Counted from the stretch's first letter, positions 4,211 through 63,974 are shown. The stretch is 64,000 nt of DNA from a bacterium (GCA_030652805.1 JAUSPT010000024.1:1-64000), one strand, 5' to 3'. Numbers and translations: made by a program. The notes: generated from the sequence alone by a model not told the origin.

Positions 4211-7200
4211 ATGATGAAGAGAATAAGGATGTTAGCGTGTATTATCTGCGGATTTGGTCTATTGTTGGTAAGTCCTGTCTGGGGTACGGATATTAATAAA
4301 GATGCTGTAGGAATATGGAAGATAGATAAAGGTGAAGGAACAACCTTAAAGGATAGCTCAGGAAACGGTAACAATGGAACTATTAAAGGAGCAACATGGG
4401 TGAAGGAAGGTTCTGGGTGGGCATTAAGTTTTGATGGCAGGGACGACTCTGTGGAAGTTCAGGACGCTCCCTCCTTAAGGCTTCAGCCTCCTTATACCAT
4501 GGGTGTATGGTTTAAGACTACCAGCTCGAATGATGGGATGTTTCTTATTGGTAAATCCAGGGGGTATGCCTATTGTCTTTTCATCACCCGCCAATCCAAA
4601 TACTTGAGTAATAATATGCGGGCAACGGATGATAAGGTTTATAATATTGCGCATGTTTTAAAAGAAGAGAATGAAACCTTTGCTGATGATATATGGCATT
4701 TTGTAATAGGAACGGTAGAAAAAGGTAAGATAAAATTGTTTATTGACGGAGAGTTAAAGGGGGAGAGAGAGTATCCGGAAGAGCTGAGTGTCCTGCACAG
4801 CGAGAACACGGCTCTCTCTCTGGTTATGGGGAGATGGGCTAAGGCGTATTATCAGGGAATGATTGGAGAGGCATTCATTCTCAAAAGAGCCATGACTAAA
4901 GAGGAAATCAAAATTCTCTTTGAGGAAGAAAAGAAAAAATATAGGGGAATATCCCTCAGGAAGACGTCGGACAAGCCGGTTATAGACGGCAAACTTACTG
5001 ATACCTGCTGGCAGAACCAAAGACCATTAACCAATTTTTATTTAAATAATATTGGTATCGAATTAGCCAAAAAACAGACGACTGCATATCTGACCTACGA
5101 TGATAAGAATATATACGTGGGATACAGGTGTCAGGAGCCGCAAATGGCAGGAATAAAAGCACATATAGCTGATCATGATGGTCCTGTCTCGAGGGATGAC
5201 TGCGTAGAATTTTTTGTCTCTCCAAAAGGAGAAGATGATTATGTTTACTACCAGTTTATCCTGAACACCAATAATGCTTTATTTGACCAGAAGATAGCAT
5301 GGAATGTCGAACACTGGGATAATCCTTTCTATGAATTTGATTCTTCATGGAACTGCAAAGGTCTCAAAAGCGCCATTTATAGCGGGCAAGATTACTGGTC
5401 AGCAGAGATAGCCATACCTTTTTCTGAGCTTGGAGGGATTCCTAAACCAGGTGATAAGTGGCGCTTAAATCTTGCCAGAGAAGAGACCCAGTCAGGTGAA
5501 TTAAGTACATTCTCCTCATTAGTAGGAGGTTTTCATCAACCCAAACATTTCTCCAGAATAGATTTTGAAGATAATATAGCTATTCTAACCAGAGCCAAGA
5601 AGCAGTTTTTTGATACCTTGACAGTAAAAAGAGAACGGCCGCTCTATAAAGAATTGCTTACTGATAAACCGGGTAGTTATATAGTTCATAACTGGCAGCA
5701 TTGGGGTAGTGAGAGCGCTATGAAGAAGTATAAATTAACCATGGATGAATGGATAAAGATGAGGTTTGAGCGAATGGAGGAAGAAGCTAAGATTGGGATG
5801 ATGGGAACGTGTTTACCCTGGTCACTCCGAGGTAGAACTCCTTGTGATACTCATAAAACACGCTTGGAACTTCACCAGAAATATGGCGCAATGGTAAATG
5901 CTCAATTTGCTAGTCAGGATGGCTGGTGTCTCCGGCAAAAAGCATTAAAAGAGGGAGCGGTCTTACAAAATCAAGGAGAGCCATATCATGTCCATGAGTC
6001 ATGTTCTATTCTCGACCCGGTCTATGTAAAATTACTAAAGAAAAGCCTGACTGACTATGCCTATAAATACAAAGACCTGCCTTATCTCTATGCCTGGGAA
6101 GGAGAGGATGAACCTACCTTCCCTCTATATCGAGGCGATATCAATACTGCTCCTGACTTGATAAAGAAGTGGAATAAGGAAGTAAAAAATAATTATGGAT
6201 TTGGTAAGTATGAAATGCCAAAGTGGAAAAAGAGCCGATGGGCAAGACCTATGGCTGGAGAGGTTTTTAGTTATATTGCCTATAATAGATGGGCAGCTCA
6301 GAAGTATCTAGAACGGAATAAAGAACTCTATCAAATAGCAAAAAGGATTACTCCTAATATTAAGTTTTGCGCCGGGAACTTGGGTACTATCCACGGTATT
6401 GACACCTTTGACCATATCGGAATAGCGGAATATAGCGATATTATGATGAACGACCCTTATGCTTCCGCTGAAGCAGGAGGTAGAGGAAGAGGGACGTTCA
6501 ATCATGGTTTTGCCACTAAGCTTACGTATGATTTATCAAATGGAAAAGACGTTTGGACAATCATTCAAGCATTTACTCATTACGGATTTAAGGCTACTCC
6601 GGATAGATTGAGGGAATGGGTTTCTCAATCTCTAAAGAATGGCGCAAAAGTAATTGACTACCTAGAAGACGATGATTGTCTCAGCAATAAGCCTCTCTAT
6701 CAGGAGATGTTGAGATTAGCTGGTATTATCACAAAAATGAACAAAATAAGAATTCCTAAAGATTCTGATACGGCTATTCTTTATCCTTATTATTCCTCTT
6801 TTGCTGATGGCCGCTTTACAAATGCTGACGAGGTATATACAGCCTATTCTCTTCTGGGGGAAAGGATTGGCTCGTGGTTCACATTCATAAGCGATTTCCA
6901 GATAGAAAAAGGACAAAAGAAGCTTTCTGATTACAAAGTGATTTACATTCCCAGAGGAGATTATTTAACCGAGGAGATAGCAAAGAAAATAGAAGATTAC
7001 GTTAGGAACGGCGGTATTGTAGTAGCTGGTGACCCAGGAATATTCAACTGGAATATCAATGGAGAAAGTTTAGCCAACTACCGGGAGAGAATATTTGGTG
7101 TTAAGGTGAGAAATAAAATACAATCAAAGGAAATGATTGTAAATGGAAAGAAGTTACCTGTTTATATGGATAACGATGCAAGCAGTAGTAACTTTTACCG

Positions 7201-56806: not shown

Positions 56807-58504
56807 ATGGAAGCAAGAAAAACAGGAATTGATATTTTAGGCAATAAGCCCTGGGGTACACACTTCTGCCAATTTTACCAGACCAAAAATGATTTAATTG
56901 ATATTCTGGTGCCGTATTTTAAAGCGGGATTAGAAAATAATGAATTTTGCATGTGGGTTACTTCAGAGCCTCTAAATGTTGAAGAAACAAAGGAATCGTT
57001 AAGAAAGGCTGTAAAAGACCTGGATAAGTATATCAAAAAAGGTCAGATAGAAATACTTGATTACAGCCAGTGGTATACCAAAGCAGGAAAATTCGAACAG
57101 GATAGGGTATTACAGGGCTGGGTCAAAAAGGAGAAGGAAGCCATAAAGAAAGGGTTTGACGGTCTCCGCCTCACAGGCAATACTTTCTGGCTTGAGAAAA
57201 AGGACTGGAAGAGTTTTGCTGATTATGAAGAAGTGGTAAACAATGTTATAGGTAAATATAAAATGCTCGCAATCTGCACCTATTCCCTTGAAAAGTGCAA
57301 TCTATTTAAAGTCCTGGATGTAGTCAAAAACCACCAATTCGCTCTCATACAGCGTGCAGGTAAATGGGAGATTATTGAAAGCGCCGAGCTCAGGAAGGCG
57401 GAGGAGGAGCTAAGGGAAAACGAAGAGAAGTATCGAGACTTGTGGGAGAACGTAAATGACCTTATTCAGAGCGTTAAACCAGATGGTACGTTTGTATATG
57501 TTAACCGTGCCTGGCGAGAAACTCTTGGGTATAATGAGAAAGAAATCCCAGATCTCTCGTTGTTGGATATCATTCATCCCGACAGTCATGCGCACTGTAT
57601 GGAGATATTTAAGCGTTTGTTAGCTGGAGAAAAGGTCGAATACATTGAAGCTGCGTTCCTGGCCAAGGATGGCAAGACAATTATGGTCGAGGGAAGCGCA
57701 AACTGTCGCTTCGTAGATGGCAAGCCTGTTACTACACGCGCTATTTTCCGTGATGTCACCGAGCGCAAGAAGGTGGAGAAGAGGAAATCGGAATTTCTTT
57801 CTCATGTATCCCACGCCTTAAGGACACCCTTGGCTTCGATTAAATCCTTTGTAGAGATTCTCTTAAAGTACAAAGATGTGAATCCGACCGAACAAAGTGA
57901 GTTTCTGACTGTAATTAATAATGAAACTGACCGTTTAACTCGCCTGATAAATCAACTTTTAGATTTAGACAAGATAGAACAGGACGAGTTAAAATGGAAA
58001 TTTGTGTCTTGTGATATCTCGAATATAGTTCAGAACGCAATTAGTGAGCTAGAGCCATTGATACAAGAAAAAAATATTGTAGTTAATATGAATCTTCCTT
58101 CTCAGGATTTGATTGTTAATGGAGATAAAGATAGATTAAATGAGGTGTTCATAAATCTAATAGGCAATGCAATTAAATTTACTCCTAGTAAGAGAGAGAT
58201 TAGGATAACCGTTAAAAATAAAGGGAAAGTTGTCGAAGTCAGTATAGCTGATACAGGTATAGGAATACCCAAGGATGAGTTGACCAATATCTTTGAAAGG
58301 TTCAAGAGATTAGATAACTCCATTAATAGAAAGCTAACAGGAACAGGTTTGGGCTTATACATATGCAAGCAAATTATAGAAAAGCATGAAGGTAAGATTT
58401 GGGCTGAGAGCCATGGAAGTAAGGGTGCTAAATTTATTTTTGTCTTACCAAAGTATAAAGCTAAGTCAACTAAAAAGAGAATCGAACCCAAAAGAGGTTC
58501 ATAG
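56807..58504 (+). CDS. MEDS-PAS-HisKA-HATPase histidine kinase
   Basis: A 565-residue soluble kinase with no membrane helix. Residues 1-180 are a MEDS domain (methanogen/methylotroph DcmR sensory): NKPWGTHFCQFYQTKNDLID, then PYFKAGLENNEFCMWVTSEP. A PAS domain covers about 200-325 (NEEKYRDLWENVNDLIQSVK, AIFRDVTERKK). HisKA contains SHVSHALRTPLASI with His336; the acidic residue that normally follows the His is Ala here. The HATPase_c domain has NLIGNAIKFTPS, IADTGIGIPKDE and GTGLGLYICKQI. It begins a same-strand run of sensor and regulator genes that ends at gvpA, so it probably senses a chemical or energy cue for gas vesicle control. SD GGAAGGGAA precedes the ATG. Confidence 0.85.
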   Translation: MEARKTGIDILGNKPWGTHFCQFYQTKNDLIDILVPYFKAGLENNEFCMWVTSEPLNVEETKESLRKAVKDLDKYIKKGQIEILDYSQWYTKAGKFEQDRVLQGWVKKEKEAIKKGFDGLRLTGNTFWLEKKDWKSFADYEEVVNNVIGKYKMLAICTYSLEKCNLFKVLDVVKNHQFALIQRAGKWEIIESAELRKAEEELRENEEKYRDLWENVNDLIQSVKPDGTFVYVNRAWRETLGYNEKEIPDLSLLDIIHPDSHAHCMEIFKRLLAGEKVEYIEAAFLAKDGKTIMVEGSANCRFVDGKPVTTRAIFRDVTERKKVEKRKSEFLSHVSHALRTPLASIKSFVEILLKYKDVNPTEQSEFLTVINNETDRLTRLINQLLDLDKIEQDELKWKFVSCDISNIVQNAISELEPLIQEKNIVVNMNLPSQDLIVNGDKDRLNEVFINLIGNAIKFTPSKREIRITVKNKGKVVEVSIADTGIGIPKDELTNIFERFKRLDNSINRKLTGTGLGLYICKQIIEKHEGKIWAESHGSKGAKFIFVLPKYKAKSTKKRIEPKRGS

Positions 58505-58521
58505 AGTAATAGGAGAGATCT

Positions 58522-59208
58522 ATGGCTAAGAGAACAATCTTAGTAGTTGATGATGATCCTAATATCATTCAAGCGGTCTCTTTTGTTTTAAAAAAGGAAG
58601 GATATATAGTTACTACAGCTGTTGATGGAAAAGAAGCATTTAAAAAAGCTAAAGAAGAATTACCTCACCTAATTATTCTTGATGTTATGTTACCGAAACT
58701 GAGTGGATTTGAGGTCTGTAAACGATTAAAAGCTAATACTCAAACCAGAAAAATTCGTACTATTATGTTGACTGCTAGGAGTGAAGAAAAGGATAAAAGG
58801 TTGGGTGAGAAGTTAGGTGTGAATGCTTATATTACTAAACCTTATAATATTGATGAGGTTCTATTTACAGTAAAGAGAGCTATAGAGAAAAAAGAATTAC
58901 AGAGATCAATTGAAAAAATGAAAAAAGCAGCCTTGGTGGGGTATATGGGAGAGGCGATGTCTCATGAGATATTTAATCCTTTATCTGTTGTTTCTGGCTC
59001 CGTCCAACTTTTAATGAGCAGGATTAAAAAAGGCAAAAAGCTAACTACAAAAGAATATGAAGATTTCTTTAAAAATATTACTAAAAATGTAGAAAGGTGC
59101 ATAGAGATTATAAATATTTTTAGGAAATTTTATGCATCTATAGGCATTGAGATTAAGCCTAGAAATTTAGAAGAAACGTTAAGGGATATATTGGAAGGCA
59201 AGATATGA
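58522..59208 (+). CDS. Response regulator receiver fused to an orphan HisKA-like segment
   Basis: A 228-residue protein. Residues 1-120 are a canonical receiver: VDDDPNI acidic pocket, phosphoacceptor Asp54 in LIILDVMLP, IMLTARS and ITKPYN with the conserved Lys. Residues 130-228 contain VGYMGEAMSHEIFNPLSVVSG, an H-box-like helix with His, and a second helix of the dimerisation type, but no ATP-binding HATPase domain. It could not autophosphorylate. It may be a phosphotransfer/dimerisation partner for one of the flanking kinases, or a hybrid kinase broken in two. It overlaps the next kinase gene by four bases (ATGA). SD AGGAGAGATC. Confidence 0.8.
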   Translation: MAKRTILVVDDDPNIIQAVSFVLKKEGYIVTTAVDGKEAFKKAKEELPHLIILDVMLPKLSGFEVCKRLKANTQTRKIRTIMLTARSEEKDKRLGEKLGVNAYITKPYNIDEVLFTVKRAIEKKELQRSIEKMKKAALVGYMGEAMSHEIFNPLSVVSGSVQLLMSRIKKGKKLTTKEYEDFFKNITKNVERCIEIINIFRKFYASIGIEIKPRNLEETLRDILEGKI

Positions 59209-60278
59209 TTATGAGTAAAGAGTTTAGCAGAGCTCTGTTTGAGTACAATCCTATTGAAACCGTAGTCGTGGATTTGGAAGGAAGAATAATCGACTTTAAT
59301 CTGGCAAAAAAGAACTCAGGGGATAGATTGCCCAATATTGGGGATGGGATGTACAAGGATTATGCAGCTCATCATGAGATTGACATGTATGCTGAATTGA
59401 TAAAATGTATCAGAACAAGTAAGGTAAAAAAGTTTCCTGAGAAAAAATATAAAAAGAGGTTTCTATCCATAACAATAGCTCCCTTTCCCAAAGGGGCAAT
59501 TATAACATCTCTAGATGTCACCGAGCACAAGAAAGAGACAGAAATAGAGAGGAAAAGAGCTACAGAGGCGAAAAAGGATTATGAACAACTACAAGCCAAT
59601 AAGGACGATTTGATTCGCTCCGAGAAACTTGCCTTTACCGGCCGCATAGCCGCAAATATTGCTCATGAGATAAGAAATCCCCTGACCAATGTAGCTATGG
59701 CAGTCCAGCAGCTTGGGAAAACCATTAAACAGGAAGGACACATTGCTAAACATATGGACATCATTAAAAGAAACACAGAAAGGATTAACTATTTAATTAC
59801 TGAACTCCTAAATTGTGCCCGCCCGCCAAAACTTAATATACAGCCATGTAATATTCATAAGGTATTAGAAGATATTTTAGAGTCCAACAAGACTAAGATT
59901 AGTTCAAAAAATATAAAGATAATTAAAAGGTTTACCTCTGACACATTCATAATAAAGATTGATAAAGAACAAATGCAGCGTGCCTTCTTAAACATAGTCA
60001 TCAATGCTATTGAAGCTATGCCCAAGAGAGGCAAATTGACCATTATTACAGAGTTTAAGGGAAATCTTTTTGAGGTGAAGGTTCAAGATACAGGTAAAGG
60101 CATTCCTGAAGAAGATATTATCAGGATATTTGACCCTTTCTTTAGTTCCAAGTCCGGGGGTGTAGGCTTAGGATTGACTATATGTTATGGGATTATTGTG
60201 AGCCATGGCGGTACTATAGAGGTAGAAAGCAAGCCGAAAGAAGGGTCTATCTTTATGGTATCTTTGCCAATTGGGTAA
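59205..60278 (+). CDS. PAS-containing sensor histidine kinase (NtrB-like core)
   Basis: A 357-residue cytoplasmic kinase. The N-terminal PAS-like region (EYNPIETVVVDLEGRIIDF to ITSLDVTEHKK) is followed by a coiled linker, then the H-box LAFTGRIAANIAHEIRNPLT and the HATPase_c domain: NIVINAIEAMPKRGK, VQDTGKGIPEED and GGVGLGLTICYGII. The core resembles NtrB-type kinases that partner NtrC-type activators. Its ATG overlaps the stop of the receiver-HisKA gene, so the two are translationally coupled. The NtrC-type gene two positions downstream is the obvious target. Confidence 0.88.
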   Translation: MIMSKEFSRALFEYNPIETVVVDLEGRIIDFNLAKKNSGDRLPNIGDGMYKDYAAHHEIDMYAELIKCIRTSKVKKFPEKKYKKRFLSITIAPFPKGAIITSLDVTEHKKETEIERKRATEAKKDYEQLQANKDDLIRSEKLAFTGRIAANIAHEIRNPLTNVAMAVQQLGKTIKQEGHIAKHMDIIKRNTERINYLITELLNCARPPKLNIQPCNIHKVLEDILESNKTKISSKNIKIIKRFTSDTFIIKIDKEQMQRAFLNIVINAIEAMPKRGKLTIITEFKGNLFEVKVQDTGKGIPEEDIIRIFDPFFSSKSGGVGLGLTICYGIIVSHGGTIEVESKPKEGSIFMVSLPIG

Positions 60279-60373
60279 AGATCAAAAGTTAGAAAAAGTA
60301 AAATTTTGAGATAAAAAAGGCACAAAGTGACAAAGGCGCAAAAGATGCTCGTTTACATAACGGAGAGTGAATA

Positions 60374-60452
60374 TAAACTCACCCTGACCCTCTCTTGAGT
60401 AGAGAGGGAATGTTCCCCTTCTCTGTCAAGAGAAGGGGCGAGGGGATGAGTT
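60374..60452. repeat. Dispersed CTCACCCTGACCCTCTC-type element with two hairpins
   Basis: The element opens with CTCACCCTGACCC and closes with GGGCGAGGGGATGAG. Inside are two exact hairpins: CCCTCTC/GAGAGGG (60388-60408) and CCCCTTCTCT/AGAGAAGGGG around GTCA (60415-60438). Elements of this type recur between genes in many bacteria. It lies in the 210-base gap between the PAS kinase and the receiver gene and could end or attenuate transcription. Confidence 0.65.
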
Positions 60453-60488
60453 GAGTTCACTAAATATTTACGACGACGGAGTGTAATA

Positions 60489-61097
60489 GTGGAAATAAAA
60501 TATGATATTAGAAGAGGCGCAGATATATATCGGGCAATTTATGGAGCTCGATTACAGAAATGGATTCTTGCAGGTAAGATAAAGCGAGGAGAAGTAATTG
60601 TCTGGCGAAGCGGTCTTTCAGGCTGGCGCAAAGCCGAAGAACTTGAAGAACTGGCGCCATTTTTTGAACAGTGGGAAAAAGAACAATTAAGAGAAACAAA
60701 GAGGCAAAAAGAGCAAGTCTTCTTAAGGAAGAAACAGAAGAAGATAAAGAATATTTTGATAATAGACGATGAGAAGGATTTGTGTTCGCTCCTGTCTGAC
60801 GCCTTAATCCAGAGAAACTACAATGTATCGATTGCAAACACAAAAAGAGAAGCTATGGCTTATCTTAAAAAGAAATCACCTGATTTAGTTCTGTTAGACC
60901 TAAAACTACCTGATGGCGATGGAATAAAAATCCTTCCTAGGATCAAAAGGGTAAATCCAGAGACAGTAGTGATTGTAATTTCTGCCTATGGAAGCGAAGA
61001 AAGCAGACAAATGGCAAAAAAGGGAGGAGCTTTTACCTTTATAAACAAGCCGTTTACTGAAGAAGATATATTAAGGAGTATAAAAGTACTCTCATAA
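60489..61097 (+). CDS. GYF_2-like domain fused to a response regulator receiver
   Basis: A 202-residue protein. The start is GTG 60489 with CGGAG nine bases upstream. Residues 3-58 resemble the GYF_2/DUF4339 module (YDIRRGADIYRAIYGARLQ, WILAGKIKRGEVIVWRSG, LSGWRKAEELEELAPFF), usually a protein-binding or membrane-linked adaptor. A charged linker (about 60-85) leads to a complete receiver domain: LIIDDEKDLCS, LVLLDLKLPDGDG with the phosphoacceptor Asp, and INKPFTEED. There is no output domain, so it may dock other proteins or be an intermediate in a phosphorelay. It is 11 bases before the NtrC-type gene and probably co-translated. Confidence 0.8.
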   Translation: MEIKYDIRRGADIYRAIYGARLQKWILAGKIKRGEVIVWRSGLSGWRKAEELEELAPFFEQWEKEQLRETKRQKEQVFLRKKQKKIKNILIIDDEKDLCSLLSDALIQRNYNVSIANTKREAMAYLKKKSPDLVLLDLKLPDGDGIKILPRIKRVNPETVVIVISAYGSEESRQMAKKGGAFTFINKPFTEEDILRSIKVLS

Positions 61098-61108
61098 CAG
61101 AGGGCAGC

Positions 61109-62488
61109 ATGGAGACGATTCTAATAGTAGATGATGAGAAGGACTTGCGTTTTAATCTTTCCAACATTTTGAAGGACGAAGGTTACAACGCAATCGCTGT
61201 GGGAGACGGAAGGAAAGCGCTTAATGCAGTTAAGAAAAATTCTCCCAATTTGGTCCTGCTGGATATGAAGCTTCCTGAAATGGATGGGATGCAGATTCTA
61301 GAGAAGATGAAGCTGATTGATAAGGATTTGATTATTATAATGCTTACTGCTTATGGAAATCTAAATGGAGCGGTAAAAGCAATGAAATTAGGGGCATTTG
61401 ACTATCTTGCCAAGCCTTTTGATAATGAAGAATTAATTCTTGTAATAAAAAGGGCTCTTCGGACCCAATATTTAGCCAAGGAAGTAGAAACTCTAAAAAA
61501 ACGGGTTGGTGAAAAAATTACAGCAGAAGAGCTAATGGGAGAAAGCCCTCAAATAAAGCAAGTCTTAAAACAGATTAAGATAATTGCTCCGACCAATATG
61601 ACTGTAATACTTCAAGGTGAAAGCGGAACAGGCAAGGAATTGATTGCTCAGATGATCCATCAGGAAAGTCCGCGAAAAAATGACCCTTTTATTGCTATAG
61701 ACTGTGGCGCAATTCCCGATACATTGGCTGAGAGTGAACTCTTTGGTCATGAGAAAGGCGCCTTTACAGGAGCTGATGCTCAAAAAGAAGGCAGGTTTGA
61801 AGAGGCTAATGGAGGAACTCTGTTTCTGGATGAGATTACAAATCTCTCTTCTACTACGCAGAGAAAACTTCTCAGAGTGATACAGGAAAGAAGGCTTCAG
61901 CATATAGGCGGCAAGAGAAGTATAAAAGTTGACGTCAGAATAATCGTGGCTACGAACATTAATCTCTCAGGCGCGGTAAGGCGGGGTAAATTTAGAGAGG
62001 ACCTCTTCCATAGGTTAAATGAATTTCATATTTCACTTCCCCCGCTTCGGGAAAGAAAAGATGACATCCCCCATTTAGCCATGCGTTTTTTGGGGGGAGG
62101 AAATCAGGAATTAAATAAAAAAATAGAAGGGTTTTCTTCTGATGTAATGAAATTGCTTCTGGATTATCCCTGGCCGGGCAATGTTAGAGAATTAAAGAAT
62201 GTAGTCAGAAAAGCAGTGCTTCTGTGCGATTCCAATCATATCAAACCGGAACACTTTCCATTAGATAATATTGCTTCCACTAAAAAGCTTGAATTTCAGC
62301 AGGATTTGGATAAAGGAGTCTCCCTCAAAGAGATAACTAAAAAAGCGACAGGACAGATAGAAAAGGAAGCTATTGAGCAAGCACTGGCAAAAGCCGGCGG
62401 CAATAAAAGTAAAACCGCCAAAATCCTCAAAATAGACCGCATGACCCTCTATTCTAAGATGAAGGAATATCAGATACGTAGACTGTAA
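61109..62488 (+). CDS. NtrC-family sigma-54-dependent response regulator
   Basis: A 459-residue activator with receiver, AAA+ and helix-turn-helix domains. The receiver has VDDEKDL, phosphoacceptor Asp52 in LVLLDMKLPEMDG and LAKPFDNEE. The AAA+ domain shows Walker A GESGTGKEL, the sigma-54 contact loop GAFTGA in HEKGAFTGADAQKEG, Walker B LFLDEITNLS and RLNEFHISLPPLRERK. The C-terminus is a Fis-type HTH (GGNKSKTAKILKIDRMTLYS). It binds upstream sites and remodels sigma-54 RNA polymerase. A perfect -24/-12 promoter 263 bases downstream of its stop points to gvpA as its direct target. SD GAGGGC. Confidence 0.95.
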   Translation: METILIVDDEKDLRFNLSNILKDEGYNAIAVGDGRKALNAVKKNSPNLVLLDMKLPEMDGMQILEKMKLIDKDLIIIMLTAYGNLNGAVKAMKLGAFDYLAKPFDNEELILVIKRALRTQYLAKEVETLKKRVGEKITAEELMGESPQIKQVLKQIKIIAPTNMTVILQGESGTGKELIAQMIHQESPRKNDPFIAIDCGAIPDTLAESELFGHEKGAFTGADAQKEGRFEEANGGTLFLDEITNLSSTTQRKLLRVIQERRLQHIGGKRSIKVDVRIIVATNINLSGAVRRGKFREDLFHRLNEFHISLPPLRERKDDIPHLAMRFLGGGNQELNKKIEGFSSDVMKLLLDYPWPGNVRELKNVVRKAVLLCDSNHIKPEHFPLDNIASTKKLEFQQDLDKGVSLKEITKKATGQIEKEAIEQALAKAGGNKSKTAKILKIDRMTLYSKMKEYQIRRL

Positions 62489-62546
62489 ATCGTATATCGT
62501 ATACAGCACACGGCTAACGAAATACGGACGACGAAATACGAAATAC
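62489..62546. repeat. Low-complexity CGTAT/ACGAAATACG stretch
   Basis: Just after the NtrC-type stop the sequence contains ATCGTATATCGTATAC and then ACGAAATACG twice (62517-62526 and 62531-62540) plus a third partial copy. It resembles decayed intergenic repeat DNA. The remaining gap to gvpA (62547-62879) holds the inverted repeats, terminator candidate, sigma-54 promoter and CAGAT array listed separately; no gene was found in it. Confidence 0.4.
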
Positions 62547-62560
62547 AGCATGCAAAGCGC

Positions 62561-62632
62561 TGTAGAATAGAGTCTACACTATATAAAGGAACACGTAGGG
62601 TTGTTGTAAAATAAATTCTACACAGATGTAGA
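62561..62632. promoter_or_regulatory. Paired TGTAGA/TCTACA inverted repeats, candidate upstream activator sites
   Basis: TGTAGA-N6-TCTACA (62561-62578) and TCTACA-N4-TGTAGA (62617-62632) use the same hexamer in opposite orientation. Their centres lie about 180 and 127 bases before the -24 element, in the range typical of NtrC-type enhancers. The second lies in the loop of a larger stem. Confidence 0.45.
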
Positions 62633-62650
62633 AACAACTCTACGCTTTTT
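62594..62650 (+). terminator. Hairpin with CTTTTT tail, candidate terminator after the NtrC-type gene
   Basis: CGTAGGGTTGT (62594-62604) pairs with ACAACTCTACG (62634-62644) over 11 pairs with one G-U; the large loop contains a second hairpin (TCTACA/TGTAGA). CTTTTT follows immediately. It would separate the regulatory operon from the gvpA transcription unit. The long loop lowers confidence, and the same bases could be an enhancer. Confidence 0.45.
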
Positions 62651-62750
62651 GCCTTTAAATTTCCTCTGCTTTTAAGCTCCTCAGAATTCTTTCAAAAGAT
62701 ATTTTTAAAAAAGAGGATACGCAAGCCGAAATTTTTTTTAGCAGATACTT

Positions 62751-62766
62751 TGGCACGGAATTTGCT
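62751..62766 (+). promoter_or_regulatory. Sigma-54 (-24/-12) promoter of gvpA
   Basis: The 16 bases TGGCACGGAATTTGCT match the sigma-54 consensus TGGCACG-N4-TTGCW at every defined position, with GG at 62752-62753 and GC at 62764-62765, 10 bases apart. Transcription would start near 62777, about 100 bases before the gvpA ATG. The gene just upstream encodes an NtrC-type activator with an intact GAFTGA loop. Confidence 0.88.
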
Positions 62767-62774
62767 TTTACAAT

Positions 62775-62863
62775 ACAGATGGTCGCAGATGAAAAATCGC
62801 AGATGGGTACAGATGTTCAATCTGCGCTGGTCTGTGAAAATAATCTGCGCTAATCTGTGAAAG
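62775..62863. repeat. CAGAT/ATCTG repeat array in the gvpA leader
   Basis: Copies of GCAGATG or ACAGATG (around 62775, 62785, 62800, 62810) are followed by inverted copies ATCTGCGCT and GGTCTGTGAAAA, AATCTGCGCTAATCTGTGAAAG. The two halves are complementary and could fold the gvpA leader into a hairpin. The same repeat type recurs between gvpA and the next gene (63126-63217). Confidence 0.55.
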
Positions 62864-62879
62864 AGGGGAGGTGGAAAAA

Positions 62880-63086
62880 ATGGCAGTAGAAAAAGCAATC
62901 GGTTCATCTAGTTTGGTTGAGGTTATTGACAGAATCCTTGACAAGGGTGTTGTGGTTGATGCATGGGTTAGAATTTCTTTAGTTGGTATTGAATTACTCG
63001 CTATTGAAGCAAGAGTCGTAGTCGCATCAGTCGAGACATACCTGAAGTATGCTGAAGCAATTGGTCTAACCGCAACAGCAGCTTAA
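62880..63086 (+). CDS. gvpA: Gas vesicle structural protein GvpA
   Basis: A 68-residue shell protein matching the GvpA family almost throughout: [40 protein letters not shown] and [14 protein letters not shown]. It is the small, very hydrophobic subunit that assembles into ribs forming the gas-filled shell. ATG 62880 is chosen because GGGGAGGTGG sits at good spacing; the in-frame GTG at 62871 lies within that site. It is the first gene after the sigma-54 promoter. Genes for assembly factors (GvpF/L, N, K, G, J, S and others) are not in the window and would be expected beyond the right edge. Confidence 0.96.
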
Positions 63087-63097
63087 GTATAGTTTAA

Positions 63098-63248
63098 AAA
63101 AAGGATTCTTGCCGAGCCACCCTTTTGAGCGCAGATTGGCGCAGATGTAAAAGACAGATGCACACAGAGAAATCTGTGATAATCAGCGTAAAAAAATCAG
63201 TGTTAATCTGTGGTTTAAACAGCATGGTTCGCCAAGAGATTCCTTTTT
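63098..63248. repeat. gvpA-repeat-protein spacer flanked by imperfect inverted repeats
   Basis: AAAAAGGATTCTTGCCGAGCC (63098-63118) is imperfectly inverted as GGTTCGCCAAGAGATTCC (63226 on) plus T-rich bases to 63248. Between them is a CAGAT/ATCTG array (63126-63217). The segment could form a long stem that terminates or stabilises most transcripts after gvpA, leaving less mRNA for the next gene. Confidence 0.4.
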
Positions 63249-63275
63249 CCGTTCTGAGAAAAAAGGGGTAAAATT

Positions 63276-63974
63276 ATGGGAAGTGCCGAGGAAATGAAGA
63301 ATTTGGCGCAAGGAATTGTTTCTTCTTATCAGGCCAGAGTTTCTGAAGTAGCCACGGTCATGGACAATGCTCACCAAATTCTTGAAGATTTTAAGCTCAA
63401 AAGAAGTGAGATGAGCAGTCAACTTAGAGAAACCCTTGCCAATGGAGAGTCTCTCAGAAAAAAGGATTTTGATAATATGATGAAAGGCATCCTTTCCCAT
63501 CAAGAAGAAAGAGAAAAAGAGGTAAAAGATTTATTAAAGACTTTTTTTGAAGAACAAAAAGAAATAGCTGAAGCCATTAGGAAGAATTTGGCCGAAGGCG
63601 AAAGCGTGAGAATAAGTGATTTTAAAAAGATGCTCCAGGATATTCAGGCAAGGCAGAAACTCAGGGAAAATGAAGTAAGAACGACCCTAAAGGAATTTCA
63701 GGAAGGACATAGGGAGATGGCTGAGTCTTTGCACAGCCTTTTAAATAAAGAAGAGTCCTTACGGATTGAGGACTTTAAAGAGATGCTAAAAGATATTCGT
63801 TCAAGACAGATAGAGCGGAAAAAAGAAGTCAGAACCAAACTTGATGAATTCAGGAAAGAACATCAAAATATGACTTCCGAATGGAATAAACTAACCGGTC
63901 TTATGGCCGAGAAAAGAGCCAGCAAGCTGAGAGGAGGTGAGAGAGAGGAAAAGTTGGAAGTTGCCAGGGTTTAA
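63276..63974 (+). CDS. Coiled-coil protein with three 51-residue repeats, candidate GvpC-like gas vesicle protein
   Basis: A 232-residue, highly charged, entirely helical-looking protein encoded right after gvpA (SD AAGGGG). Residues 50-100, 101-151 and 152-202 are three repeats of exactly 51 residues. Shared core: L-x3-L-x3-ES-[LV]-R-x2-DF-x2-M-[LM]-x2-I, then Q-x2-R-x2-EV-x3-L-x2-F. Examples are ESLRKKDF, ESVRISDF and ESLRIEDF. The N-terminal 40 residues look like half a further, decayed repeat (GIVSSYQARVSEVATVMD). No signal peptide or membrane helix is present. Cyanobacterial GvpC also uses tandem helical repeats (33 residues) to clamp the shell and is encoded just after gvpA. The sequence is not a GvpC I recognise, so a GvpC-like role is inference from repeat architecture and position. 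Confidence 0.75.
   Translation: MGSAEEMKNLAQGIVSSYQARVSEVATVMDNAHQILEDFKLKRSEMSSQLRETLANGESLRKKDFDNMMKGILSHQEEREKEVKDLLKTFFEEQKEIAEAIRKNLAEGESVRISDFKKMLQDIQARQKLRENEVRTTLKEFQEGHREMAESLHSLLNKEESLRIEDFKEMLKDIRSRQIERKKEVRTKLDEFRKEHQNMTSEWNKLTGLMAEKRASKLRGGEREEKLEVARV

Follow-up and report, generated by a model that had tools for sequence, protein, structure and literature searches.

The window analysed here is a stretch of 64,000 nt from an uncultured bacterium (GCA_030652805.1 JAUSPT010000024.1:1-64000), the genome of which, G000, is 2.0 Mb, and the locus described, from 56807 to 63974, is one where signal transduction genes stand in front of gvpA, the gene for the gas vesicle shell protein. 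Five signalling genes, all on the + strand and spanning 56807-62488, precede a -24/-12 site of the sigma-54 type and then gvpA. The gaps between the five genes are 17, -4, 210, and 11 bp, and the last of them ends 391 bp before the ATG of gvpA. A sequence-only reading of this DNA had described five consecutive co-directional signalling genes leading into a perfect -24/-12 site, gvpA, and a repeat protein, and all of these were found on the + strand where that reading had placed them.

The first gene (56807-58504, +) encodes a sensor kinase of 565 amino acids with the domain order MEDS-PAS-HisKA-HATPase_c, as seen from the open reading frame (ORF), its Pfam domains, and a motif check. Its MEDS domain (PF14417) matches the whole profile (1-161 of 161) with 160 bits against a cut-off of 29.8. 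The second gene (58522-59208, +) encodes a 228 amino acid protein, a receiver (REC) joined to HisKA, in which the Asp and Lys of the receiver and the His motif HEIFNP are present and in which HATPase_c was not found either with Pfam or in the motif check. This REC-HisKA protein is a candidate phosphotransfer protein and has what a phosphorelay calls for, namely, an intermediate receiver and a phosphotransfer His domain without its own ATPase. Searched against genome contigs, it matched only general REC/HisKA relatives. The third gene (59205-60278, +) encodes a HisKA-HATPase_c kinase of 357 amino acids with a PAS-like N-terminus, the PAS label being given from the look of the sequence only because no Pfam PAS model passes. 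The fourth gene (60489-61097, +) encodes a 202 amino acid protein with a GYF-like domain and a receiver, referred to here as GYF_REC. Its match to GYF_2 (PF14237) is below the Pfam cut-off, 21.9 versus 25.8 bits; the corresponding match is 21.0 bits in the sister species, G002, and none is listed in G042, a genome from a different small phylum. A structure model of GYF_REC made from four sequences had low confidence in the N-terminal part, too low to judge the GYF fold, and a plasmid search with this protein gave no match. The fifth gene (61109-62488, +) encodes an NtrC-type activator of 459 amino acids (REC-Sigma54_activat-HTH_8) in which the motifs GESGTGK (Walker), GAFTGA, and GGTLFLDE are intact and the Asp and Lys residues of the receiver are present. 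Thus, the domain labels MEDS, REC-HisKA, and NtrC-type in the sequence-only reading were upheld by Pfam, whereas GYF_2 fell below the cut-off and the PAS domain of the second kinase had no Pfam match.

The promoter, TGGCACGGAATTTGCT (62751-62766, +), is an exact match to the -24/-12 consensus. The exact pattern occurs twice in the genome and the reversed pattern, used as a control, does not occur. The second exact site stands between a pilC-like and a pilin-like gene and serves as an internal control because a sigma-54 promoter is expected at this classical sigma-54 target. The genome has one match to a sigma-54 gene (rpoN), and six strong matches and one weak match to sigma-54 activators. Downstream of the promoter is gvpA (62880-63086, +), identified by Pfam; its ORF can be read from a GTG at 62871, but the ATG at 62880 is the likelier start because the relatives begin with MAVEKAIG.

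Between the NtrC gene and the promoter are three dyads of the form GTAGA-N6-TCTAC, at -189, -145, and -123 from the -24 box, which we take as putative activator sites: GTAGAATAGAGTCTAC (62562-62577, +), GTAAAATAAATTCTAC (62606-62621, +), which has one mismatch to the dyad, and GTAGAAACAACTCTAC (62628-62643, +). Their spacing of 44 and 22 bp is near whole helical turns and none of 100 shuffles was as good. In G002 the three dyads and the promoter are at identical offsets even though an ORF intervenes between the NtrC gene and the promoter. Dyads 2 and 3 add little to this because the block around them is conserved throughout between the two genomes, but dyad 1 lies in a stretch that has diverged, and there 9 of the 10 arm bases and only 1 of the 6 spacer bases are kept. 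Another genome, G288, has a near-match dyad, GTAGAAAGAGACCTAC, followed downstream by a perfect -24/-12 site, and the C-terminal helix of its NtrC, DRTTLYSKIKE, is similar to DRMTLYSKMKE in the window. In G042 the helix reads DYKTLYNKIKK and there are two dyads of a different sequence, TGGAA-N4-TTCCA, 20 bp apart. The dyad search gave no convincing tandem family in G135, G183, and G359, and in G235 the sequence is masked there. We infer that the NtrC-type protein binds the GTAGA-N6-TCTAC dyads. Short repeats of the AATCTGCGCTAATCTGTG type were also seen in the gvpA leader (62814-62859) and downstream of gvpA (63166-63212), and a related stretch is upstream of the dyads in G002.

The comparison sample was 385 genomes, of which 22 have gvpA, and the surroundings of their gvp genes were read. 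With dinucleotide shuffles as the control, a strong -24/-12 site was found before gvpA at 8 of the 10 loci that have an NtrC-type gene near and at 0 of the 8 loci in which no such gene was seen. G002 keeps NtrC (95%), GYF_REC, the kinase, and the promoter. Its first kinase is a 92% match to the MEDS kinase of the window from the PAS domain onward but differs at the N-terminus, where MEDS is lacking, and therefore it appears that the sensor has been swapped and the rest kept. G002 also has a REC-HisKA of the same form and a separate REC gene, and the REC-HisKA of the window looks like a fusion in which REC 1 has been placed before the HisKA portion of a second gene, of the REC-HisKA type; in G002 the two genes are separate. 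Between REC-HisKA and the second kinase, G002 carries genes for a 253 amino acid protein whose sole domain is a sigma-54 DNA-binding domain and an 87 amino acid GIY-YIG nuclease (L020:16201-17222). The ratio of nonsynonymous to synonymous divergence (dN/dS) between G000 and G002 is well below 1 for all the genes compared, 0.45 for the kinase part and 0.20 for the HisKA part of REC-HisKA, which by this measure is under purifying selection.

The order kinase, kinase, GYF_REC, NtrC, and gvpA is the same in G042, where gvpA is separated from NtrC by two small ORFs and a -24/-12 site is present. Neither MEDS nor a free REC-HisKA is at the locus in G042 and G288; in these two genomes and in G235 a REC-fronted full kinase is in place of REC-HisKA. 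A profile of the GYF-like domain gave strong matches in five genomes and in four of them (G000, G002, G042, and G235) the match is beside gvp genes. The kinase core and the GYF_REC homologue are in one ORF in G002, and a second copy in G235 has the GYF-like domain and the receiver as adjoining genes, which links the kinase with the GYF-receiver in a single pathway. The fifth genome, G288, has the kinase, GYF_REC (52%), NtrC (62%), and a perfect promoter, TGGCACGCTTGTTGCT, that leads at the contig end to the start codon of a protein beginning with MSNLPAVLQP and not to gvpA. Conserved synteny of the regulators with gvpA, which the sequence-only reading had put forward as a check, is thus seen in G002 and G042 but not in G288, which keeps the kinase, GYF-receiver, NtrC, and promoter and in which gvpA and gvpN were not found. 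The sequences themselves show the parts, the promoter, the dyads, and their conservation, along with the linkage to gvp genes in several lineages.

This type of circuit, in which NtrC, sigma-54, and kinase and receiver genes are at gvpA, is already known because there are precedents in Serratia and in Methylocella tundrae. In Serratia sp. ATCC 39006 gvpA1 is fully transcribed only when GvrA, which is of the NtrC family, GvrB, and GvrC are all present, a consensus sigma-54 site lies upstream of gvpA1 (PMC4982088), and gas vesicles are not formed when rpoN is mutated (PMC11778176). According to PMC4982088, a second operon, which starts with gvrA and includes gvrB and gvrC, is a general feature of gvp clusters in proteobacteria. 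The window resembles Serratia in having an NtrC-type activator with the gvp cluster, a -24/-12 site before the shell gene, which is gvpA1 in Serratia, and further regulators (PMC4982088, PMC11778176), and it has the features of GvrA-type control, namely, an NtrC activator at the gvp locus, a -24/-12 site along with rpoN, and kinase and receiver partners. It differs in that the Serratia regulators are in the second operon headed by gvrA whereas the five signalling genes of the window are ahead of gvpA. Going by the excerpts of the Serratia papers that describe the system (PMC4982088, PMC11778176), the window is also set apart by the MEDS kinase, the REC-HisKA without an ATPase, and the GYF-like receiver.

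Plasmid 2 of Methylocella tundrae (NZ_LR536451.1) has a sigma-54 regulator with 43% identity to the NtrC of the window, a PAS-type kinase, and a lone receiver directly upstream of gvpA; the run of genes that these form with gvpA also includes a GvpF-type gene, and gvpA is preceded by a -24/-12-like site, TGGCTCCGTTCTTGCA. Unlike in the window, the receiver has no GYF-like part, the helix-turn-helix (HTH) is a separate small ORF, and there is no MEDS and no REC-HisKA. In the plasmid regions of Thiodictyon and Octadecabacter gvpA has no annotated kinase or NtrC genes beside it. The arrangement had been called undescribed, and this does not hold for the overall design in view of Serratia (PMC4982088, PMC11778176) and Methylocella tundrae. 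What appears to be new is the sensor set, that is, the combination of the MEDS kinase, REC-HisKA without an ATPase, and the GYF-like receiver, which was not met in the literature found.

We propose, with considerable confidence, that a dedicated two-component or phosphorelay cassette switches on gas vesicle synthesis through sigma-54. The cytoplasmic kinases, that is, the MEDS-PAS kinase and the second kinase, would start the phosphoryl flow, and phosphoryl groups would then pass by way of the receiver-bearing REC-HisKA and GYF-receiver to the NtrC-type activator. The activator, bound some 120-190 bp ahead of the -24 box at the phased GTAGA-N6-TCTAC dyads, would bring about sigma-54 transcription of gvpA and of the gvp operon behind it. 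The order of phosphotransfer given here, and with it the signal, is a presumed one, and REC-HisKA could be the phosphotransfer step. By analogy with the Serratia genetics (PMC4982088, PMC11778176), NtrC and RpoN would be needed for gvpA transcription in the window genome. The earlier claim of a dedicated NtrC/sigma-54 control of the gvp genes is borne out by synteny in other lineages, by the site tracking the NtrC gene, by the conserved dyads, and by the presence of rpoN. As for the word phosphorelay, the residues of REC-HisKA are in place and its dN/dS is that of a protein kept by selection, but the name itself is a reading of the domain order.

Some of the results weigh against this proposal. 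The Fisher p of 0.001 for the co-occurrence of the NtrC gene and the site is a guide only because the test was set up after the loci had been viewed and related genomes were treated as independent. In G228 and G052 an NtrC gene is near and yet no site is at gvpA; in both, gvpA is apparently not the first gene of its transcription unit. In G288 neither gvpA nor gvpN was found in the genome, the empty search for gvpN being weak evidence alone. The H-box of the MEDS kinase is SHALRTPL, with A in place of the usual E after the His, and without the usual acidic residue its autokinase activity is uncertain. Finally, MEDS is absent from the kinase of the sister species.

One rival explanation is that the MEDS kinase and REC-HisKA are decaying or accessory and that the working system is the second kinase, GYF_REC, and NtrC, which would be compatible with sigma-54 control. 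It is quite possible, if somewhat unlikely, that this is the case. Besides the unusual H-box, the lack of MEDS and of a free REC-HisKA at the locus in G042 and G288 and the fusion-like REC-HisKA of the window, from genes that are separate in G002, are in line with it. However, the H-box variant and REC-HisKA are common to two species with the low dN/dS values given above for the HisKA part and the kinase part, and REC-fronted kinases recur in G042, G288, and G235.

Another explanation is that the kinase, GYF_REC, and NtrC form a general portable cassette that brings along a sigma-54 promoter of its own and acts on any gene located downstream, gvp being only one target in this lineage, in which case NtrC may regulate other genes as well. 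The cassette in G288, with its near-match dyad and its promoter leading to the MSNLPAVLQP protein in a genome where gvpA and gvpN were not found, is what such an explanation would predict, and we read it as a sign of a portable cassette and not of a failed gvp link in the window genome. On the other hand, the GYF-like domain is beside gvp genes in four of the five strong-match genomes, the only other exact -24/-12 site in the window genome adjoins pilin-like genes, and the G288 contig ends at this place, where an overlap search to extend it past the promoter gave no joining contig and a search without hits does not prove that the genes are absent. We therefore consider this explanation improbable. 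That the signalling genes are chance neighbours or hitchhikers in gvp transfer with gvpA under an ordinary sigma-70 promoter is very improbable. In its favour are the sigma-70-like hexamers seen throughout, at about the same rate as in shuffled sequence, and the uneven silent-site divergence within the locus (0.08 to 0.79), which suggests a mosaic history. These have to be set against the perfect promoter with its conserved phased dyads, the co-occurrence of the NtrC gene and the site, the same gene order in another phylum, and the Serratia genetics (PMC4982088, PMC11778176).

The complete gvp cluster that would be under this control extends beyond the window by about 17 kb and reaches position 82 kb or so on the contig; this extension, like rpoN, was out of sight of the sequence-only reading. 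Next after gvpA comes a repeat or coiled protein in the GvpC position (63276-63974, +), the first of two tandem homologues, for which no Pfam family was above the cut-off. In all, the cluster has two GvpC-like repeat proteins, GvpN, two GvpO-like and four GvpF-like proteins, GvpG, GvpK, and further GvpA/J proteins, along with three DnaJ-type zinc-ribbon proteins, Hsp20-like proteins, an ArsA-like ATPase, and a CDC48-like double AAA protein. Among these names gvpA comes from Pfam, and the other gvp genes were named by their sequence and place in the cluster. The three DnaJ-type proteins are paralogous CXXCXGXG zinc-ribbon proteins without a J domain (L006:3093-3413, 5192-5590, and 6716-7102), and the CDC48-like and ArsA-like ATPases are nearby; in G235 an intein-like insert interrupts the CDC48-like gene of the gvp locus (L150:1875-5685). 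A GvpA/J-type protein fused to PH/GRAM-like (Vps36-type) domains with a cysteine-rich C-terminal end is encoded beyond the window (L006:16777-17883; contig 78777-79883) and has a paralogue at L008:2301-3422, so that this unusual gas vesicle protein architecture is present twice in the genome. The paralogue is on a short contig, C6 (L008:1-4350, whole), that has a second partial gvp set, with GvpK, GvpF, and GvpJ-PH paralogues 77-85% identical, beside a transposase-like zinc-ribbon ORF. Silent-site divergence between G000 and G002 has about a tenfold range among neighbouring genes, from 0.08 (kinase part, gvpA) to 0.79 (gvpN), which suggests that parts of the gvp region have been exchanged in a mosaic fashion.

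Among the 385 genomes, the MEDS domains nearest to that of the window are in G090, G089, and G229, all of which bear gvp genes. In G089 and G229, from another phylum, represented by four genomes, MEDS is 56-58% identical to that of the window and is likewise upstream of gvpA, but it is fused to a LuxR-type HTH whereas in the window the output is a kinase; no NtrC gene was seen beside gvpA and no -24/-12 site was found there. The three gvpA-adjacent MEDS domains group together in 78% of bootstraps, a value that is no more than suggestive. For the close MEDS kinase of G090 and for other close MEDS kinases no gvp genes are nearby, and a gvp-only clade marked by MEDS is weakly supported by these comparisons. 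A confident structure model of the domain (predicted local distance difference test score, 89) matches KaiC/RecA-like proteins with Z about 17, and the sequence profile matches SSO2452. The Walker A motif was found in 0 of 12 MEDS sequences, and H19, C21, and C48 are invariant in all 12.

MEDS is predicted in the literature to sense simple hydrocarbon derivatives (PMC11507031). A literature search for MEDS or DcmR together with gas vesicles gave no paper that joins both. The suggestion that MEDS brings a small-molecule or redox/carbon signal to buoyancy is so far unsupported, MEDS being missing from the kinase of the sister species, and to name carbon or redox as the signal is guesswork. A bolder view is that MEDS serves gas vesicles as an input module: a single MEDS lineage would have come to be associated with gvpA in two phyla, in one by way of kinase-NtrC-sigma-54 and in the other by direct LuxR-type DNA binding, buoyancy would answer the same intracellular signal in both, and REC-HisKA would function in phosphotransfer from the MEDS kinase towards the activator. 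Taken as a whole this view is tentative and we think it unlikely.

Beyond a small number of cultured groups, Serratia, cyanobacteria, and haloarchaea among them, little is known of the signals that make bacteria float. The locus and its relatives give a testable rule, namely, that gvpA is preceded by a -24/-12 site where an NtrC gene is present at the locus, and phased dyads are found in at least three genomes. They also suggest that the output is kept when the sensor is exchanged, and MEDS, being tied to gvpA in two phyla, may offer a handle on the input signal.

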